From Verrucomicrobiota bacterium (lineage in GTDB: Bacteria > Verrucomicrobiota > Verrucomicrobiia > Opitutales > Opitutaceae): a DNA stretch of 39,160 bases. The stretch spans positions 1 to 39,160 of the forward strand of contig JAUWBF010000028.1 in assembly GCA_030601755.1 (NCBI GenBank), read 5' to 3'. Below the pieces are notes generated by a model. That model was not told the DNA's origin, ran no database searches, and saw only the letters and a program-made list of their open reading frames with translations. How positions within the stretch are numbered: the stretch's first letter is position 1; the number at the start of each line of letters is the position of its first letter. Position numbers and translations under genes: made by a program. Below, piece after piece: positions 2,410 to 23,455 of the stretch.

Positions 2410-3906
2410 ATGCCCATTCCCTCGAAAAGCCGTGCGGTCCTCGTGTTGGAAACCCTGTTCGACTGCGTCTTGTTGGCGGTGGTCTCGCTGTTGGGCGCCA
2501 TGGTCGGCGCGGTGCTGATGCAGGGGATAAGGCCGGACACGCAAAACCTCGCACGCTCGGTCACGTGGTTGGCGGTCGCGGTGGTGATCGCGCTGGCTGG
2601 CTGGGCCTGGATCGAGACGAAGAGACGGCTGCGTCCCGTGTCCTGCGGACTTGTAACCGGCGGCATGCTGCTCGTCGGAGGCGTCGTTTGTCTGTGGATA
2701 CAGGCGTTCAGACTGGAACTGGAACACACCGGATCGGACGGGGTTCTGGCGGTGGCGGCCCAGATGCTGATGTTTCTGCTGCTGCTTCTGGTGTGCTTCA
2801 TGGCCCGCCATTTCGCCCTAGGCCGGCGGTGGTGGCGATGGCCCGCGCGGGCGGCGCTCTCGGCGGCGGTCGCGGTCGTGGTGGTTTACCTCAAGTCGGA
2901 CGCCGAGGAATCACCCAGCGTGGTGCGGAACCGCGAGGCGGTGTCCGGCTATTATGACGACGAGGCCTCCTACCTGCTGACCTTGCGCTATTCCCCGAAG
3001 CCCGGGGCGGGGCTGGTCATGGCCGAACTACCCCACCGGCTGAACATTCCTTCGGAAGAGCCAAAGCGTTCGACCTACCTGAAAGCGCATCGCGAAGAGA
3101 TCGAGGCGAACTGGGCGGCGTTGACCGACGTGCGTGCCTGGTGGTCGGAGATGGCGGCGCTGCCGGCGCTCGGCGACCGAACCTCCGGCCGCATTGACCA
3201 GCCCATCATGAAGTTCACACCGGTCAGAGCCTACACGCACCACGCGTTGGCCGTCGCGGAGTTGCGAGCGCTGGATGGCGACGGCGACGGGGCCATTTCG
3301 ATGGTGTCGGACGTCTTCAAGGTCGGTGCCTACCTGGAGTTCCCGACCTGCACGCTTGTTCGCGGCATGGTCGCGGTGTTCGTGCAAAGGAACGCGCTCA
3401 AAAGCGCGACGTTCATCTTTGAGCACGCGGAGGTTTCCCGGCAGGCGCGTGGAGAGTTCGCGGCGTTGCTGGCCGCGCGGCATGATCCGGCGGACTCGCT
3501 CCGGCGGATGTTGCTGGCCGACGGCATTTACACGGAGAACGTCGTTCGCTCCGTCGACAACGCGGGCAGCCTGGATATGTCCGTTGGCGAAATGGGAGAC
3601 TGGGCGTTCATCTTCGGCGGCGGCGTGCGCTGGCTGACATTCGATACCCAGGACACGATCAACCGGATTCACGACGAGTTGGAGATACAGTCCGATCTGG
3701 CGGCTGCGCGTGACCTGGATGCCTTGCGGCGGCGCGACGATGAAATGTGGCGGGAGCTGCACGGCCTATTTCAGATCAAGAACATCGGCGGCCGCATGAT
3801 GATGTCGCTGATGATGCCCGCCTACACCTCGATCACGAGGCGCTACTGGGAAAAGGAGGACCTGCGCCAGGCCATGCTGACGCGACTCACTGCGCCTCTT
3901 GACTGA
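2410..3906 (+). CDS. Multi-pass membrane protein of unknown function
   Basis: Starting from the ATG at 2410 (MPIPSKSRAVLVLETLFDC) the product is 498 residues. In-frame starts at 2314 and 2362 exist, but this one leads directly into the first hydrophobic helix. The first ~160 residues form about five membrane segments (for example LLAVVSLLGAMVGAVLM, LAVAVVIALAGWAW, LMFLLLLLVCFMA, AALSAAVAVVVVYL). The remaining ~330 residues are a soluble, alpha-helical domain with no recognised catalytic motif; a short DGDGDGAISM segment is Asp-rich but not a full EF-hand. The gene stands alone, flanked on both sides by apparent minus-strand gene remnants. I do not recognise the family. Confidence 0.75.
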   Translation: MPIPSKSRAVLVLETLFDCVLLAVVSLLGAMVGAVLMQGIRPDTQNLARSVTWLAVAVVIALAGWAWIETKRRLRPVSCGLVTGGMLLVGGVVCLWIQAFRLELEHTGSDGVLAVAAQMLMFLLLLLVCFMARHFALGRRWWRWPARAALSAAVAVVVVYLKSDAEESPSVVRNREAVSGYYDDEASYLLTLRYSPKPGAGLVMAELPHRLNIPSEEPKRSTYLKAHREEIEANWAALTDVRAWWSEMAALPALGDRTSGRIDQPIMKFTPVRAYTHHALAVAELRALDGDGDGAISMVSDVFKVGAYLEFPTCTLVRGMVAVFVQRNALKSATFIFEHAEVSRQARGEFAALLAARHDPADSLRRMLLADGIYTENVVRSVDNAGSLDMSVGEMGDWAFIFGGGVRWLTFDTQDTINRIHDELEIQSDLAAARDLDALRRRDDEMWRELHGLFQIKNIGGRMMMSLMMPAYTSITRRYWEKEDLRQAMLTRLTAPLD

Positions 3907-3969
3907 ACGAATCAAAGACACCCGCGCGAACAAGGCCGTTCAAGGCGGTGTTGCCATCGGTGGTCGTCA

Positions 3970-4150
3970 GCCGCGCCGGCGGACCTGCACGAAGACACCG
4001 CCGTTGGTAGTCTTCGTTTTTTAACCTCGAACAAGTCGATGGCAGAGAAGAGGTCTACGAGCTTGCCGAAGCCGTGGTTGCTCGGATCGAACGAACCCTA
4101 GTTGATGGACGGGGAGCGCCCGGCCGCCAGACCAGCGAAGTCGGCCTCCA
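3970..4150 (-). pseudogene. Possible decayed coding remnant
   Basis: In the gap between the membrane protein and the mannosidase, minus-strand translation gives protein-like stretches broken by an in-frame TAG and a shift of frame: GSFDPSNHGFGKLVDLF, then DLFEVK, then in another frame NGGVFVQVRRRG before a stop. Nothing else was recognised in this gap. It may be the decayed end of a secreted protein, but chance cannot be excluded. Confidence 0.2.
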
Positions 4151-4154
4151 TCGT

Positions 4155-7100
4155 TCAGACGAGACGAACAGTGCGCAGCGCGAAGGGCCGGTGCCATTCC
4201 TTCGCCTCGCACGTGTCCTCGAGCAGGTTGCAATCGCCCGCGAGCGTCAGCGGAGCCACCGGCGCGACCGCCATGCGCGAGGCCGAGCCGGCGGCGTCGT
4301 AAAGCCGCACGATCACGCCCTCGCCGGACTCGGCGGGCTTGACGGTCTCAACCACGATGCCGGGCGCGGGTTCCGCGATCAGCGAAGCCGAGGCGCGCGT
4401 GCCGCCGCGGTGAGCGAGCAGCGGGGTGTTGAGCTCGTAAGCCGGGCGCACCACGGACTCCACCGCCCACCCGCCGGCGTGCGGCAGCAGCGCGTAGGTG
4501 AAGCGGTGCACGCCCTTGTCGCCACGCGGGTCGGGATGACCACCGCCCTTGAGCAACGAGAGCCGGACGCGGCTGCCCAGCACGGAGAGACCATATTTGG
4601 AATCGTTGAGCAGCGACACGCCGAAGTCCGCCTCGGAGAGATCGGTCCACTTGTGTTGGCTGACCTCGAACCGCGCGCGGTCCTCGGCGAAGTTGCGATG
4701 CGTGCCGCGCTGCAGGTGGCCAAACTGGATCTCGTGGCGAGCCGCCGGCGTGTGCACCGCGAGCGGGAACTCGACACCGAGGTAGCGGTGCGGTTCTTCC
4801 CAATCGACGACGGTCTCGAAATCAACGCGCGCGGTGTGCGCATGGACCACGATGTCCTGCGTGAGCACGGAGCGGCGGCCGAGCTTAAGCACGCGGCGCA
4901 GGCGGAGCTGCAACGGTCCGTCGGCCACGACGCTGAACCCGGCGGGCGACGTAAGCGGCGCGAGCTTCAGTTCAAGATCGGGATCGATGTCCCAATTGTC
5001 CCACTGCGCGGGGATGTCCTCGCCGAAGACAAAGGTATTGAGCGGACCGCCGCGCGCGTCGCGCAACTCGCGGCCCGAGGCCAGATCGAGCCACGAAACG
5101 ATGCGCCCGGCCTCATCGAAACGCAGCACCGCGTGCGGCGTGCGCAGCGTGTCGCCCTCGTAGGCGAACGGCGATTCGGAGGAGGAATGCTCGCCGGCGG
5201 CGAAGGTGGTCGCACCTAGTGGCGGCAGGGCCAGTCCGGTGAGCGCGCGGCGGCGTTCGCCCCAAGGCGTCTCGATCTCCTGCGAGGCGACGCCGGCGGG
5301 CGCGGGGTGCGCGGCGGCGATCCAGCCGGCGTCGCGCGTCCAGCCCAGCGTATTGTGAATGCTGATACGGCCCGCGTCGCCATCGGAGAGCGCGGCGAGC
5401 AGTTCGCCGGCATGGGCGCGGGCGTCGGCGACCAATTGGCCGAGCTCACGGATGGCGCGGTCGTGCACTTCGGGGATCGAGGTGCCGGGCAGGATGTCGT
5501 GGAATTGGTTGAGCAGAAGCACGCGCCAGAGCGTCTCGAGGCGCGCCGCGTCAGTCTCGACTCCGGCGAGACGCGCGCGGGCGGCGCAGTAGTCGAGGTT
5601 TCGCAGGGCAAACTCGGCCTCGCGGTTCAGGCGCTTGATGGCGGCCTGCTGGGTGAGCGCACCGCGATGGCCTTCGAAGTAGAGCTCGCCGACGTAGAGC
5701 GGCGCGCGCACGGCGTCGGCTTGCAGCCCATCCATGAAATCCGAAACAGAGGTGTAGGTCGCGCGTGGACAGCCATCGAGATCAGCCACGCGACGGGCCA
5801 TTTCGAGCATCTCGAAATCGGGACCGCCGCCGCCGTCGCCGCGCCCGAAGGAGACGAGGCGCGCCTGGTTGACGTCGGGGTGGCGCACGCAGTTCTCGGT
5901 CTTGCGGAAGTCCTTGGGGCCCGTGCCGGCAAGCTTGTTGATGAGCGTGCCGGGATCGGGCGCGCAGTGGATGTCGTTGAAGTGCGTGAAGACGCGCGTG
6001 CCGTCGATGCCCTCCCACCAGAAGGTCTCGTGAGGAAAGCTGTTGGTGTCGTTCCAGGTGAGCTTGGTTGTCAGAAAAAAACGGATACCGCACCCGGCGA
6101 GGATCTGGGGCAGCGCGGCCGAGTAGCCAAAGGTGTCGGGCAGCCAGAACGTGTCGCCGGTGTAGTCGAAGTGCTCGCGGGTGAACTTGCGCCCGACCAG
6201 GAATTGGCGGATGAGCGCCTCGCCGCCGGCGAGGTTGACGTCAGGCTCGACCCACACACCGCCGTTGGGCTCCCAGCGTCCCTCGGCGGTGCGGCGCTTG
6301 ATGCCCTCAAAAATGTCCGGATAGCCCGTGCGCATGAACTCGGCGTGCACGGCCGAGCTTTGCACAAAACGATACTCGGGATACTGCTCCATGAGGCGCA
6401 GGACGTTGCTGTAGGTGCGGGCGCACTTGCGGCGGGTCTCGTCGATGGTCCACAGCCAGGCGGTGTCCATGTGCGAGTGGCCGATCAGTCCGGCACGGGC
6501 GGCGCTGTCGCCGTTGCGCTTGGCGAGTTCGTGGCCGAGCAACGCGCGCGCCTCGATGATGCCGGCGCGCCAGACGGACTCGTCGACGCCCTCGGGCTCC
6601 TCCCATACGGCGGCGTAGACGCGGTCGAGCGCGGCGAGCAATTGTCCCTTGCGAAAGCTGCGCTCGGGCAACGCCTCGGTCAGCGTGCGAATGACGTGCA
6701 GGTCGACCACGAAGTCCTTCACCAGTTCGTCGCGCCGGGCGATGAAGAGGCCGTTGAACGTGCGGATGAACGGCGGCCGATAAACGTCCTGCGTGCGCGG
6801 CGTCTCGCCCGGATGCACGCCGACGACCTCGTGGCCCGCGTAGGCCTCGACGAGGATGCGGAACGTCTCGCCCTTGCGTGCCGACGGCGCGAGCAGCAGC
6901 GCCCGGTGGTCGCCGCGCTGCCACTTGTAGTCGGCGTGGTTGAAGATGCCGCAGCAGCGACCGTTGACGCGCAACAGCGCCTCGCAACCGCCGGTGTCGG
7001 CCCGCACGTAGAGCGGCTCGTCGTGGTCGCGGTCGGCCGTCCACTCGGCGTGAAACCACGCGCTGCCACCGGAACAACCCCAGGTCCACCCACGCTCCAC

Positions 7101-15180: not shown

Positions 15181-18100
15181 ATGAATACAGCCTCTGGACT
15201 GTTTGCGCGCGGCCTCGCGCGCCTCGCCGAACGGATAACCTCGCCAGGCCTGCCGCTCCTCGCCGCCCTGTTGTTCGCCTGCATCCTGCCCTTGGCCTCG
15301 GCGGCCAACTTCACGCGAGGCACGGCGACGGCCGTGAAGTTCGGCGTGCACGAGATCACGCTCACCGGCAACGGCTCCGTGGCCAACCCGCAGGACACCA
15401 TCGCCACGGTGACCTTCACGCCTCCCTCCGGCGCGGCCAACGCCCGCACCGTCCACGCCTTCCACGATGGCGGCCACACCTGGCGCGCCCGCGTCTACGT
15501 CTCCGAGACCGGCGCATGGACCTGGACCTCCGCCTCCGCGACCGACGCCGGACTCAACGCCAAGAGCGGCGCGTTCACCGCCGCCGCGTCCTCGCTGCGC
15601 GGCAAGCTTGTCAAGCACCCGGCCAACCCCAAGGCCTGGGCCACCGACGACGGCGCGTGGTTTCTCAACGTCTCCGACACCGGCTACTACCTCTTCAACG
15701 AGGCCAGCACCCAGTGGCAGGACTTCGTCACCGACGACTGGGACCAGGGCGTCAACTCCATCCGCGTCAACATGGTCGGCGCCCTCCGCCAGTTCGGCAA
15801 ACAGCAGGTGTCCGACGGCTGGGACCGCGTCTTCGCCGACGCCGGCTACACCACGCTCAACCAGGCCGCGTTCGCCCTGCAGGACCAGCGCATGGAGTGG
15901 ATGCTCAACAACCGCCCCGGCATGTATCTGCAGCTCATCGTCACGCCCGAGCCCGGCCAGAGCGACGACCGCGTCTGGTATCTGCTCAGCGCCGCCCAGC
16001 GCGAACGCTTCCTGCGCAACATCGTCGCGCGCTACGCCGCCTGGCCGCAGGTCTTCTGGCTGGTCACCAACGACGCCTTCGTTTCCAACCACCCCAGGAA
16101 CGTCGCCATGATCAACGAAATCGGCGCCTACCTCGCCGCCAACGACCCCTGGGCCGACAAGAACCTCCGCTCCAACGGCCAGCGCCGCGACACCGGCTTC
16201 TCGTTTCTCTCCGCCGACTGGGTGAACTACATCCATCTGGAGACCACCTACGACCTCTCCGCCGCACAGGAGGACGCCTACTCATCCACGCCCATGCACG
16301 TCTACAACGGCGAGGACTGGTATGAGGAGGAAAAGCCGATCACCAACGACGCCTATTTCTTCCGCCGCCTTTACTGGGCCTACACGCTCTCCGGGGGATC
16401 GGCCTGCTACGGCGGCGCGTGGAACCGTATCCTTTCTTATGATACGGCTGGATTCACCGGGCTCGACTCGGCCCCGCACGTCGGCGCCTTCTTCGCCGGC
16501 GGCAACCTCACGCTCGTCGACTACCTTGCGGCGGACTCCCGCGTCACCGGCCCCTCCGGCCAGCGCAAGGCCAAGGCCATGCGCACCGCCGACAGCCGCA
16601 GCTTCGTCATCTACCATCCCAACGCCGCCGCGGACAACTACCAGACCGTGCCCTCCACCGGCACCGCTTCGTTCACAGTGACCAGCCTGCCCTCAGGCAG
16701 CTACTCGCTGCGCTGGATGCGGGCCGACAACGGCACGATCAGCAACGCCGCCGACTTCACCCACGGCGGCGGCAACCGGGCATTCTCCGCCCCGTGGTCC
16801 GGCACCGATGTCGTCGCCTGGCTCCGCCCCGCCGGAGGAAGCACCTCGCAGGCGCCGTCGATCACCTCGCAGCCGCAGGGCCAGACGGTAAACGCCGGCC
16901 AGACCGCCACCTTCTCGGTCTCCGCCACCGGCACTCCCGCCCCCGCATACCAATGGCAGAAGAACTCCGCCAACATCCCCGGAGCCACCTCCTCGAGCTA
17001 CACCACTCCGGTCACCACCTCCGGTGACAACGGCTCCGCCTACCGCGTCGTCGTTTCCAACTCCGCCAGCTCCGTCACCTCCGCCTCCGCCACCCTCACC
17101 GTCAACGCCCTCCCCGGCGGCGATGTCCCCGCCCCATGGTCCAGCAACGACATCGGCTCCGTCGGCATCTCCGGCGACGCCGACCATGCCTCGGGCGTTT
17201 TCACCATCCAGGGCTCCGGCGCCGACATCAACGGCACCGCCGACGCTTTCCACTTCGTCCATCAAGTCATTGAGGGCGACTGTGACATCATCGCCCGCGT
17301 CTCCTCGCAGACCAACACCCACAGCTGGGCCAAGGCCGGCGTCATGATCCGCGAGTCCCTCGACCCCAACGCCAAGCGCCTGCTCATGGTCGTCACCCCC
17401 AACTACGGCTTCCGCTACCAATACAGACTCACCACCGGCGGTTCCACCCCCACCAGCACCGGCGGCGGATCCCTCTACGCCTCTCCAAACAACTGGGTCC
17501 GCCTCGTCCGCGACGGCGACGACTTCACCGCCTACAAGTCCGCCGACGGCTCCAACTGGACCCAGGTCGCCTCAACCTCCATTCCCATGAACTCCGCCAT
17601 CTACGTCGGACTCGCCGTCTGCAGCCACGACAACTCCGAACTCTCCACCGCCACCTTCGACAACGTCTCTGTCAGCGGCAACGCCGCCGGCGGCCTCCCC
17701 TCCCCCTGGGCCGCCGACGACCTCGGATCGGTCGCACTCACCGGCTCCACCGACTACGCCTCCGGCGTCTTCACCATCCAGGGCGCAGGCATCGACATCA
17801 ACGGCTCCGCCGACGCATTCCACTTCGTCCGCCAGCCCGCATCGGGCGACTGCGAGATCATCGCCCGCGTCACCTCCCAGACCAACACCGACACCTGGGC
17901 CAAGGCCGGCGTCATGATCCGCGAGTCCCTCCTGCCCGGTTCCAGGCACGCCATCATGGTCGTCACGCCCGGCAACGGATTCCGGTTCCAGCGCCGCGAC
18001 ACCACCGACGCCACCACCCCCTCCAGCGCCTACGGCGGCGGCCTCAACACCGCCCCCAACAACTGGGTCCGACTCGTCCGCTCCGGCGACACCTTCACCG

Positions 18101-21013: not shown

Positions 21014-23455
21014 TCAACGCCCGCGCAGCGCCGGCCGCAGGCCGATGCCCACGATCGCCAGCGTCGCCAACGAGCTCAACGGCATCAACACCGCCGCGAA
21101 CAACGGGTTCATGTGACCGGTCACCGCCAGCCCCACCGCCGTCAGGTTGTAGGCGACCATGAACACCAGCAGCACGATGTGCGTCGCGCGCCGCGCGTCG
21201 TTCACCTCCAGCAGCGCGCGAATGCCGTCGAGCCCCCGGCCAAGGTAATAAAAATCCGCCTTCTCCGCGAGCACCCCGCGGTGCACCACCGGTGTGCCCC
21301 GACACGACACGCGGTCAAACGCGAGGCTGTCGTTGGCCCCGTCGCCCAACATCAGCGTCGTGTCCGCGCCCGCGCCCGAAAGCCAGTCCGCCTTCTCGCG
21401 CGGCGAAAGTCCGCCCAACGCCGCGTCCGCCGGCAGCCCCAACGCCGCCGCCAGCGAGGCCACCTTTTCGGGCCGGTCGCCGCTCAGCACGTTCACCGCG
21501 AGCCCGCGAGCCCGCAGCGCCGCCAACTCGCCCCCCGCCCCGCGCCGCGCCGACTCCCCCAACGCAAACCGCGCCACCTCCACCCCACCCCACGCCAACA
21601 CCACGTCGGCCCCGGCCCCCGGCAATTTGTCACTTATTAAGTTACAAATTGCATTTCCATTTTGGTTATCAGTGGTTTGCTGCTGGTTTTTTGATGGATT
21701 TTTCCAGCCGGCGCGGCCGAGGGACCAGGGGCCGAGTTCGACGCCGCTGCCGACGGTTTCGCTCACTTCGCCCGTCAGGCGCGGGCCGTCGAAGCCGCCG
21801 ACGAGGAGCGCCTCGTGCAACGCCTGCGCGGCCGGGTGTAGGTTGTCGTGCACCAGCGCGCGCAACGCCGCGAGCGCGTCGGCGTTGAGCGTCGCGAGCA
21901 CCTCGGGGTTGCGCAGCGTGGGCGTCTCGAGGGTCAGCGTGCCGGTCTTGTCAAAGACCACGCGGCGCAGCTTGTGCAGACGCGGCCAGAGGTCGCCGGC
22001 GCGCACGAACACGCCGCGCCGACGCAACGCCACCGTGGCCATCTCGTCGGCCAGCGGAAACGCCAGACCGAGCGCGCACGGACACGACACGACCAACACC
22101 GCCGTGACCACCGCGCCGGCGGCCAGCGCGTCGCCGCCGCGCCACAACCACCACGCGCCCGCGCCGATCGCCGTGGCGATGATCGCGACCAGATAAACCT
22201 GCACCACGCGCGCCACCAGCGGGTCGTCCCGCACGGAGCGCTCCACCGGCTTGAGCAACTCGGCGAGCAGCGCCGCCGACCAGTCCTCGACCGCGCGCAG
22301 GCGGATCTCGTCGCGGCCGGCGTTTTGCGCGCCGGACGGCACCTGTTGACCACCGTGAAACACCCGCGGATCGGACTCGCCGTTGATCCAGGCGAGATTC
22401 ATGTCGGCCGCCGCCGAGACCAGCTTCGCGGCCACCGGCACCGTCTCGCCGCGGCCGATCACAAACTCGTCGCCCTCTCGCAGCGTATCCGGCGCGCGGA
22501 GACAGATCGCGCCGTCGGAGCCCACCACGCCGACGCGCGGCGGGGTCGGTTGCAGGCGCAGCAGGCGGCGCTGGTTGCGCTCCACCGCCGCGACCTGCGC
22601 CCAGCGACCGATCAACATCAGCAGGATGAACCCGCTCACAAAGTCGAAATAGACGAACTCCTCGCGGCCGGTCAGCCAGCCGTAGAACGAACCCGCGTAG
22701 GCGCCGCAGATGCCGATGGCGATCGGCAGGTCCACGTGCATCGCGCCGACCTGCAACGCGCGCCAGGCCTTGCCCAGAAAGTAGCCGCCGCCGGCCAGCA
22801 GGCTGAGCGTCGAAAACCCCATCGCCAGCGTGCCGAACAGATGCGCGTAGGCGAAGTCCGCCTCCATGCCGAAGTAGGTCGGCAACGCGAAGAGCATCAC
22901 GTTCATCGAGAACGCCGCCGCCAGCCCGATGCGCTTGGCCAGCGCCCGGCTCTCGGACGGTGCGTCGTTGGCCTCGGTCACCGGACCGAGCAGGTAGTTG
23001 AAACGCTGCAACGCTCGCGCGAAAGCCTGCGCGTCGAAGCCCGGTCGCCAGAGCAACCGCACGCGTCCGGTCTGCGCGTTGACCTCGCAGCGGCCCGCAC
23101 CCGGTTGTTTCTGAAAAACGCGGTCGATGAGCCACACGCAGGCCGCGCACGAGATCCCCTGCACCGCCAGCACCAGCTCGGGTGTGCGGGCACCGGCCTT
23201 GACCTCGGCCGCCGCCTGCAACTCGGCCAGCCACGCAAAGTCGCGCTCGGGTTGCAGCGCCGCGTCGGCCGGCGCGGTGACGTCGTCGCGGAACTTGTAG
23301 TAGTCGGCCAACCCCTCGTCGTGGATCAGCCGATAAACGTAGGCGCAGCCCGCGCAGCAGAACTCGTCGCCGGCGGGGCTCGGCGCGCCGCAGTGGCGGC
23401 AAACCGGCTTGGCCCGGGCCTGCGCGGGCAGGTCGATGGCGGCGCTCAGTGACAC
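21014..23455 (-). CDS. ccoI: CcoI/FixI-type copper P1B ATPase for cbb3 oxidase assembly
   Basis: The product is 813 residues. GTG at 23455 is chosen because GGAGGAGGAG lies just upstream and the start overlaps the stop of the TauE/SafE-like gene by 10 bases; the frame stays open further up but only as a shadow. Order: Cys-rich N-terminus (CRHCG, then CCAGC); a heavy-metal-associated domain with GISCAACV (Cys103, Cys106); membrane helices; an A domain with INGES (TGE in most P-type pumps); the translocation motif SCPCALG; DKTGT with phospho-Asp502; HP at 540-541; and GDGANDS at 705-711. It moves copper out of the cytoplasm towards the oxidase CuB site. Residues ~585-612 come from an inserted low-GC palindromic segment in the nucleotide-binding domain. 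Confidence 0.95.
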   Translation of the reverse strand: MSLSAAIDLPAQARAKPVCRHCGAPSPAGDEFCCAGCAYVYRLIHDEGLADYYKFRDDVTAPADAALQPERDFAWLAELQAAAEVKAGARTPELVLAVQGISCAACVWLIDRVFQKQPGAGRCEVNAQTGRVRLLWRPGFDAQAFARALQRFNYLLGPVTEANDAPSESRALAKRIGLAAAFSMNVMLFALPTYFGMEADFAYAHLFGTLAMGFSTLSLLAGGGYFLGKAWRALQVGAMHVDLPIAIGICGAYAGSFYGWLTGREEFVYFDFVSGFILLMLIGRWAQVAAVERNQRRLLRLQPTPPRVGVVGSDGAICLRAPDTLREGDEFVIGRGETVPVAAKLVSAAADMNLAWINGESDPRVFHGGQQVPSGAQNAGRDEIRLRAVEDWSAALLAELLKPVERSVRDDPLVARVVQVYLVAIIATAIGAGAWWLWRGGDALAAGAVVTAVLVVSCPCALGLAFPLADEMATVALRRRGVFVRAGDLWPRLHKLRRVVFDKTGTLTLETPTLRNPEVLATLNADALAALRALVHDNLHPAAQALHEALLVGGFDGPRLTGEVSETVGSGVELGPWSLGRAGWKNPSKNQQQTTDNQNGNAICNLISDKLPGAGADVVLAWGGVEVARFALGESARRGAGGELAALRARGLAVNVLSGDRPEKVASLAAALGLPADAALGGLSPREKADWLSGAGADTTLMLGDGANDSLAFDRVSCRGTPVVHRGVLAEKADFYYLGRGLDGIRALLEVNDARRATHIVLLVFMVAYNLTAVGLAVTGHMNPLFAAVLMPLSSLATLAIVGIGLRPALRGR
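21623..21707. mobile_element. Low-GC palindromic insertion within ccoI
   Basis: In a gene of about 70% GC this ~85-base stretch is AT-rich. It contains a 29-bp palindrome at 21623-21651 whose arms are CAATTTGT and ACAAATTG with ACTTA/TAAGT inside, and a T/G-rich tail to about 21707. Coded residues (KNPSKNQQQTTDNQNGNAIC on the gene strand) are unlike the rest of the protein. It looks like a small repeat or MITE-like element that entered in frame. No target-site duplication could be defined with confidence. Confidence 0.5.

Follow-up and report, generated by a model that had tools for sequence, protein, structure and literature searches.

We conclude that the low-GC segment inside the CcoI-like P-type ATPase gene of the window (the whole 39,160-nt stretch of DNA analysed) is probably a copy of a REP-like repeat, dispersed and untagged, that persists in frame within a protein, and that the flip in strand composition around such copies would be the product of strand-polar processing after insertion. 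The flip consists of about 100 bp of C-rich sequence 5' of the palindrome and about 100 bp of G-rich sequence 3' of it, on both strands; it is absent from the preliminary description of this DNA and is the more surprising part.

The host gene and the parts of the segment with its flanks lie as follows.
21014-23455, minus strand: host gene, a heavy-metal P-type ATPase, CcoI-like (PF12156, PF00403, PF00122, PF00702).
21611-21703, minus strand: whole in-frame insert, flanked in the ATPase by the conserved blocks ...LGRAGW and ADVVLAWGG.
21627-21647, no strand assigned: 21-bp 9-3-9 core TTGTCACTTATTAAGTTACAA, encoding CNLISD on the coding (minus) strand.
21622-21652, no strand assigned: extended palindrome of 31 bp, with 13/14 arm pairs and the centre ATT.
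21653-21703, minus strand: AT-rich tail, encoding KNPSKNQQQTTDNQNGN, with one copy in the genome.
21704-21802, minus strand: upstream flank of 33 codons whose third positions are rich in C, at a G3-C3 skew of about -0.6.
21512-21610, minus strand: downstream flank of 33 codons whose third positions are rich in G, at a skew of about +0.7.

The name CcoI-like is taken over from the preliminary description, and the presence of PF12156 at the N-terminus and of an HMA domain agrees with it; PF00403 scored just below its cut-off (23.8 versus 24.8). As that description had stated, a segment of low GC interrupts a GC-rich gene (0.45 at 21600-21699, versus 0.66-0.80 in the gene's 100-base windows clear of the segment) and the reading frame is kept, the ATPase frame being open across the insert for 1010 codons from 24046, or for 814 codons including the stop from the GTG at 23455. 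The insert, whose bounds were set by flanking blocks conserved among the aligned orthologs, is translated in frame as KNPSKNQQQTTDNQNGNAICNLISDKLPGAG. The palindrome described there as 29 bp long is indeed present, at a length of 31 bp, and when the loop DNA was shuffled 200 times by mononucleotides, no shuffle reached its score. Tandem Repeats Finder reported four weak arrays in the window, each of about 2 copies.

We then examined the genome to which the window belongs (G000; 3.55 Mb, 152 contigs, 96% complete). The 21-bp pattern TTGTMACTTAWTAAGTKACAA occurs there in 76 copies at no more than 3 mismatches, as against none for the reversed control pattern, and the consensus is TTGTMACTT-AWT-AAGTKACAA in a 9-3-9 layout. 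When a 101-base segment was searched against its own genome, 98 matches were returned, including the self hit; one of them consisted of 14 bases in the tail (query 87-100), and the remaining matches all fell inside query 1-57, the palindrome and its edge. The recurring unit is the palindrome, of about 21-31 bp, and not the 85-base segment put forward earlier, whose tail is single-copy. The 46 sites that were read hold 67 palindromes, as 25 singles, among them the window copy, and 21 pairs; within a pair, the distance between core starts is 47 to 87 bp and most often 53 or 66 bp. The pair spacers have a mean GC of 46% and resemble each other barely more than shuffled sequences do (mean local score 6.74 versus 6.39), two pairs exceeding the largest shuffle score. 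By eye, the ATPase tail resembles the spacers of two sites in ThiE-like and NnrD genes (L049 and L064), and on this likeness it is possibly the spacer of a former pair whose second palindrome has been lost.

The palindrome proved to be a repeat of the host's bacterial family. The strict pattern, at 1 mismatch, was found in 7 genomes, including G000, among the 95 relatives searched, and a looser core, GTMACYYAWTRRGTKAC, in 86 of 200 family genomes representing 30 of 49 genera, at no more than 104 copies per genome. Its reversed control matched once each in 2 of the same 200 genomes. Within a sample of 240 genomes of the phylum, none of the 219 from outside the family contained the looser core. 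The arms are genome-specific: G000 and several named MAGs carry TTGTCACTT/AAGTGACAA, G040 carries TTGTAACTT, and G039, G107, G126 and others carry GTAACCTAATAGGTTAC. Copy number is patchy inside genera, ranging from 0 (in G183) to 104 within a single one (g41). Among the 80 strict-pattern matches listed, the carriers were Verrucomicrobiota MAGs labelled Opitutaceae, Opitutus, Rariglobus, Opitutae or Verrucomicrobia, with the sole exception of one MAG contig that bears the name of an actinobacterium, Marmoricola (L133, 1191-1211), which reflects either a binning error or a transfer. Viral carriers and a known RNA family were also considered; IMG/VR gave 0 exact matches to the palindrome, and an Rfam scan of 10 loci gave no hit at the gathering score other than a tRNA.

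As for their placement, 11 of the 46 sites are intragenic according to a purpose-written codon-composition gene caller, 29 lie between tandem genes, 2 between convergent and 2 between divergent genes, and 2 at contig edges. All 11 intragenic sites are read in frame, which is partly so by construction, since a copy that breaks the frame, in a gene now dead, would be classed as intergenic. The preliminary description had named the lack of a second copy as contrary evidence and had proposed to see whether further copies sit in frame in genes; further copies are numerous, and these 11 do. The spacing of pairs is a multiple of three in 4/4 intragenic and 7/17 other pairs, a difference that gives no significant sign of frame selection (Fisher p 0.09). 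The palindrome core has a single open frame per strand, encoding the peptide C[HN][LV][IL]SD[KN], which by symmetry is nearly identical in both orientations, and these two properties may explain its persistence inside proteins. In Pfam or NCBIfam terms, the hosts are the window ATPase, MetX (homoserine O-acetyltransferase), a tRNA uracil methyltransferase-like protein, DUF1365, a methyltransferase, a ThiE/TenI-like protein, a second P-type ATPase and O6-methylguanine-DNA methyltransferase, along with NnrE-NnrD, an exonuclease-DNA ligase fusion and one protein without a Pfam or NCBIfam name. The fusion (L069, G000 C146:4011-12011, gene 2964-5672) is a single ORF in which residues 8-317 form a ligase-associated exonuclease and residues 360-893 an ATP-dependent DNA ligase, and its palindrome, at 4001 or residue 345, sits at the exonuclease/ligase joint as if it were a gene-fusion linker.

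We compared orthologous loops with and without the palindrome. The CcoI alignment comprised the window and 29 loci from relatives; the protein search had given some match in 60 of 61 genomes, often to paralogs alone, and genomes without a returned locus were excluded. Loop length among these 30 family orthologs ranges from 8 to 32 residues, the window loop having 31-32. Conserved presence of the stretch, named in the preliminary description as evidence against its reading, was not found: 22 of the 30 carry no 9-3-9 palindrome and the other 8 carry one, mostly with other arms. With one rule for three genes (a 21-mer with the centre AAT or ATT and at least 7/9 arm pairs), the motif was detected in 8/30 CcoI, 3/29 NnrD and 9/33 Fmt loops, a total of 20 in 92 orthologs versus 0.08 expected from shuffled loops, and in only 4 of 2715 same-length pieces elsewhere in these genes. 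The arms of the loop palindromes vary between orthologs, for example GTGTCACCCAATGGGTGACAC, TTGTAACCTATTAGGTTACAA and ATGTCATATAATATATGACAA. The position of the Fmt palindrome is common to G040 and three named MAGs, and that of one methyltransferase palindrome to G000 and two named MAGs; this may reflect either inheritance, with the arms changing in concert, or more than one entry at the site.

Next, the flip was quantified as G-C, right minus left of the palindrome. Over the 46 sites it amounted to +0.53 at 5-10 bp, +0.44 at 20-30, +0.33 at 40-60, +0.27 at 60-80, +0.16 at 80-120, +0.08 at 120-160 and +0.01 at 240-400 bp, while at 582 control positions it stayed within 0.05 of zero. The 11 intragenic sites alone gave +0.44, +0.45, +0.34 and +0.26 in bins matching the all-site profile. 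Oriented by transcription, the upstream and downstream values were -0.25 and +0.05 for the 29 tandem sites (distant baselines -0.09 and -0.10), and -0.25 and +0.14 for the 11 intragenic sites (baselines -0.10 and -0.04). The flip extends to four-fold sites in the intragenic hosts, at which C was 0.83 and G 0.14 upstream, against baselines of 0.52 and 0.41, and C was 0.37, G 0.52 and T 0.10 downstream. In the window gene itself, the first 30 upstream codons include 21 ending in C and 6 in G, and the first 30 downstream codons 4 and 24, respectively. Among the 13 other genomes with at least 3 sites, 11 showed a flip above +0.1 at 20-40 bp, the two without it being G097 (-0.05, 4 sites) and G178 (+0.02, 3 sites). 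The flip is not a general property of hairpins, since 27 other hairpins with stems of at least 10 in the same loci gave +0.17 at 5-20 bp, and then +0.06 at 20-40 and +0.01 at 40-80 bp, nor is it a consequence of convergent genes, between which only 2 of the 46 sites lie, as against 29 in tandem.

The orthologous loops further allowed the flip to be set against the presence of the motif. Third-position flips averaged 0.48, 0.88 and 0.48 in the motif carriers of CcoI, NnrD and Fmt, versus -0.11, 0.11 and 0.04 in the 72 loop orthologs without the motif, and permutation of carrier labels within genes, ignoring kinship among the orthologs, reached the observed sum in none of 20,000 trials. This stratified test applies one rule to all three genes, the NnrD cut-off (palindrome score 9) having been seen post hoc. 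Taken singly, CcoI gave p = 2e-4 with nine carriers, one of which (L111) was counted by peptide alone. Fmt, which was picked as a replicate once CcoI and NnrD had been analysed and whose site was known beforehand to contain the palindrome, gave p = 0.0014 with nine carriers by motif and p = 0.064 when carriers were defined by a palindrome score of at least 8. Three NnrD orthologs with palindromes of unrelated sequence had flips of 0.85, 0.45 and 0.36, within the top six, and at a GC-rich palindrome in one Fmt loop the flip was absent (-0.15). In the own genome, control flips did not exceed 0.82 at 16,346 positions in 169 genes away from copies; six of the 11 intragenic sites, at 0.88 to 1.27, lie above every control, one stands at 0.64, and four show ordinary flips of -0.03 to 0.27, including the L046 site, which is common to two other genomes. 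Palindrome-bearing orthologs without a flip were seen in CcoI (L098, L093, L101 and L106) and in Fmt (L302, L293 and L307). Since motif-free orthologs lack the flip and controls are never so strong, it probably arises after insertion, though not at every copy.

The converse order, in which the element enters where a C-rich stretch already adjoins a G-rich one, would account for a flip at almost any age and in all genomes, and some mobile elements do select their sites by composition or single-strandedness. We nevertheless regard such a target preference as quite improbable, as the flips are small in the motif-free loops of all three genes and pre-existing junctions of the strength found at six intragenic sites were not seen among the control positions. 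A chance palindrome in a naturally variable ATPase loop, with no element at all, would be in keeping with the wide range of loop lengths, but this explanation is already refuted by the copy number in the genome, where the reversed control is not found at all, and the excess of the motif in orthologous loops over that expected likewise leaves it next to no probability.

Two further explanations invoke selection. Rather than being a selfish repeat, the palindrome could be a selected binding site for a dimeric DNA-binding protein, co-evolving with that protein; the core is nearly invariant whereas the pair spacers share little, the arms change in concert between genomes, the base position is kept in three genomes in the methyltransferase gene and in four in Fmt, and the spacings within pairs have two preferred values, 53 and 66 bp. 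We nonetheless consider this unlikely, given that almost a quarter of the sites (11/46) lie inside unrelated proteins and that the copies are so patchily distributed within genera such as g41. Slightly less likely still is a role as a two-way transcription stop or pause, in which the C-rich, G-poor 100 nt upstream would be a rut-like Rho-loading stretch selected after insertion. Rut sites have C above G across about 100 nt upstream, and the C excess found upstream over about 100 nt on both strands looks like them; in addition, the sites are on the whole closer to the 3' end of the preceding gene than to the start of the following one, and the two-sided pattern also occurs at tandem sites. On the other hand, the flip is equally strong at intragenic sites in translated genes, with a four-fold C content of 0.83 upstream, and premature stops inside translated genes should be harmful. 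Selection for a longer hairpin was also set aside, as the flanks have no specific complementarity, true and mismatched flank pairs being equal in duplex or hairpin energy (mean rank 0.50-0.55).

Our preferred reading is therefore that of a repeat of this bacterial family, with 9-bp arms around AWT, which is or was mobile and of which a copy would persist in a protein when it lands in a tolerant loop with the frame kept. The flip would then arise as the DNA at the palindrome is processed repeatedly in a strand-polar manner, and its polarity fits a process that starts there and treats the strands differently on each side. A hairpin or cruciform might first be nicked or broken, with resection or strand displacement and re-synthesis to follow, and with errors exchanging G and C; after a break and 5' resection, the 3' tails would be the C-rich strands, and G lesions within these tails, if copied as C, would yield the observed pattern. 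More tentatively, and with somewhat less than an even chance in our estimate, the palindromes may be seats of a continuing process that turns G into C on the 5' side and C into G on the 3' side over about 100 bp, synonymous sites included, so that a selfish repeat leaves a readable scar. Plain cytosine deamination was rejected, as neither A nor A+T is raised at upstream four-fold sites and only T is raised downstream (0.10 versus 0.04). According to PMC3901139, both imuB and imuC are needed for G:C to C:G transversions in Caulobacter. DnaE2/ImuC was, however, set aside as the error-prone polymerase, because DnaE2 appears to be absent from the carriers checked (a single PF07733 match each in G000, G040, G039 and G046).

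With regard to mobility, Y1 transposase genes were found in 11 of 12 family genomes, with no Y1 match in G046 (84% complete) despite its 18 exact-type copies. Mobilisation by a RAYT was considered and rejected, as no core at up to 2 mismatches was present at three Y1 loci of G000 and at one of two in G040, two of these stretches being cut by contig ends. In a comparison of G039 with G107 (L246, 570-720, versus L314), which are 97.7% identical over 2.4 kb nearby, the sequences diverge strongly for some 100 bp to the left and right of one palindrome site, which holds a single palindrome in one genome and two in the other, and a second pair site close by differs hardly at all. No clean empty site at base resolution was seen and no transposase was found beside the copies, so mobility is only inferred. 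The preliminary description had spoken of a small mobile element similar in concept to the Rickettsia palindromic elements (RPEs); this reading is partly supported, the conceptual likeness being good.

RPE-1 elements are 100-150 bp long, whereas the repeated unit here is shorter, at 21-31 bp, and has a strand flip beside its copies. The likeness to RPEs lies in palindromic, dispersed copies that sit in frame in otherwise normal proteins, as they are portrayed in PMC3733652, and in-frame insertion into proteins that lack the palindrome in relatives was found here for CcoI, NnrD and Fmt. The copies also resemble GTAG/CGTC REPs in being numerous, palindromic over 20-40 bp and often paired, but the terminal tag is missing, occurring within 8 nt of only 4/67 palindromes versus a random rate of 0.295 (both including complements). 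In the same text, GTAG repeats are reported to lie inside ORFs of Opitutus terrae, the species with the most intragenic ones, and to form pairs with variable spacers (PMC3733652), and for this reason REP-like repeats read in frame are not new in kind in this group. Compared with the O. terrae repeats by their partial description there rather than by consensus sequence, the present palindrome differs in its perfect 9-3-9 symmetry and AWT centre. REPIN/RAYT systems, as outlined in PMC8266576, share palindrome pairs a few tens of bp apart, and Y1 genes occur in the family, but the copies here are untagged and not near RAYT genes. PARCELs are likewise palindromic DNA encoding protein, described in PMC2996958 as tandem 25-residue repeats, whereas the present copies are single or paired and dispersed. 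In full-text literature, which takes in few subscription papers, we found no paper on this palindrome family or on a local skew flip at REP-like repeats.

These repeats thus offer a case of RPE-like entry into proteins in frame over many genera. Because the repeat spans so many genera, orthologs with and without it can be compared at one site, and the entry and persistence of such repeats in proteins become testable. Should the palindrome be what causes the flip, small repeats would shape codon choice and amino-acid composition in the surrounding host genes, and the flip would provide a handle on the enzyme acting there; if the scar reading is true, the past activity of a selfish repeat could be read from composition.

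Finally, some related palindromes and arrangements were noted. A sister variant, GAGTAACCYAWTRGGTTACTC, coexists in G000 (L043, L044 and L065), where loose matches number 104 versus 72-76 strict ones, and four of its copies showed weak flips of -0.06 to 0.17. The NnrD linkers of other genera (L271, L255 and L276) hold unrelated GC-rich palindromes, and the flip is present there too. In G046 C1 (L126), G020 C1 (L247) and G097 C1 (L249/L250), copies with near-identical flanks are regularly spaced at about 1684, 270 and 345 bp, respectively, and are apparently tandem duplications carrying the palindrome.
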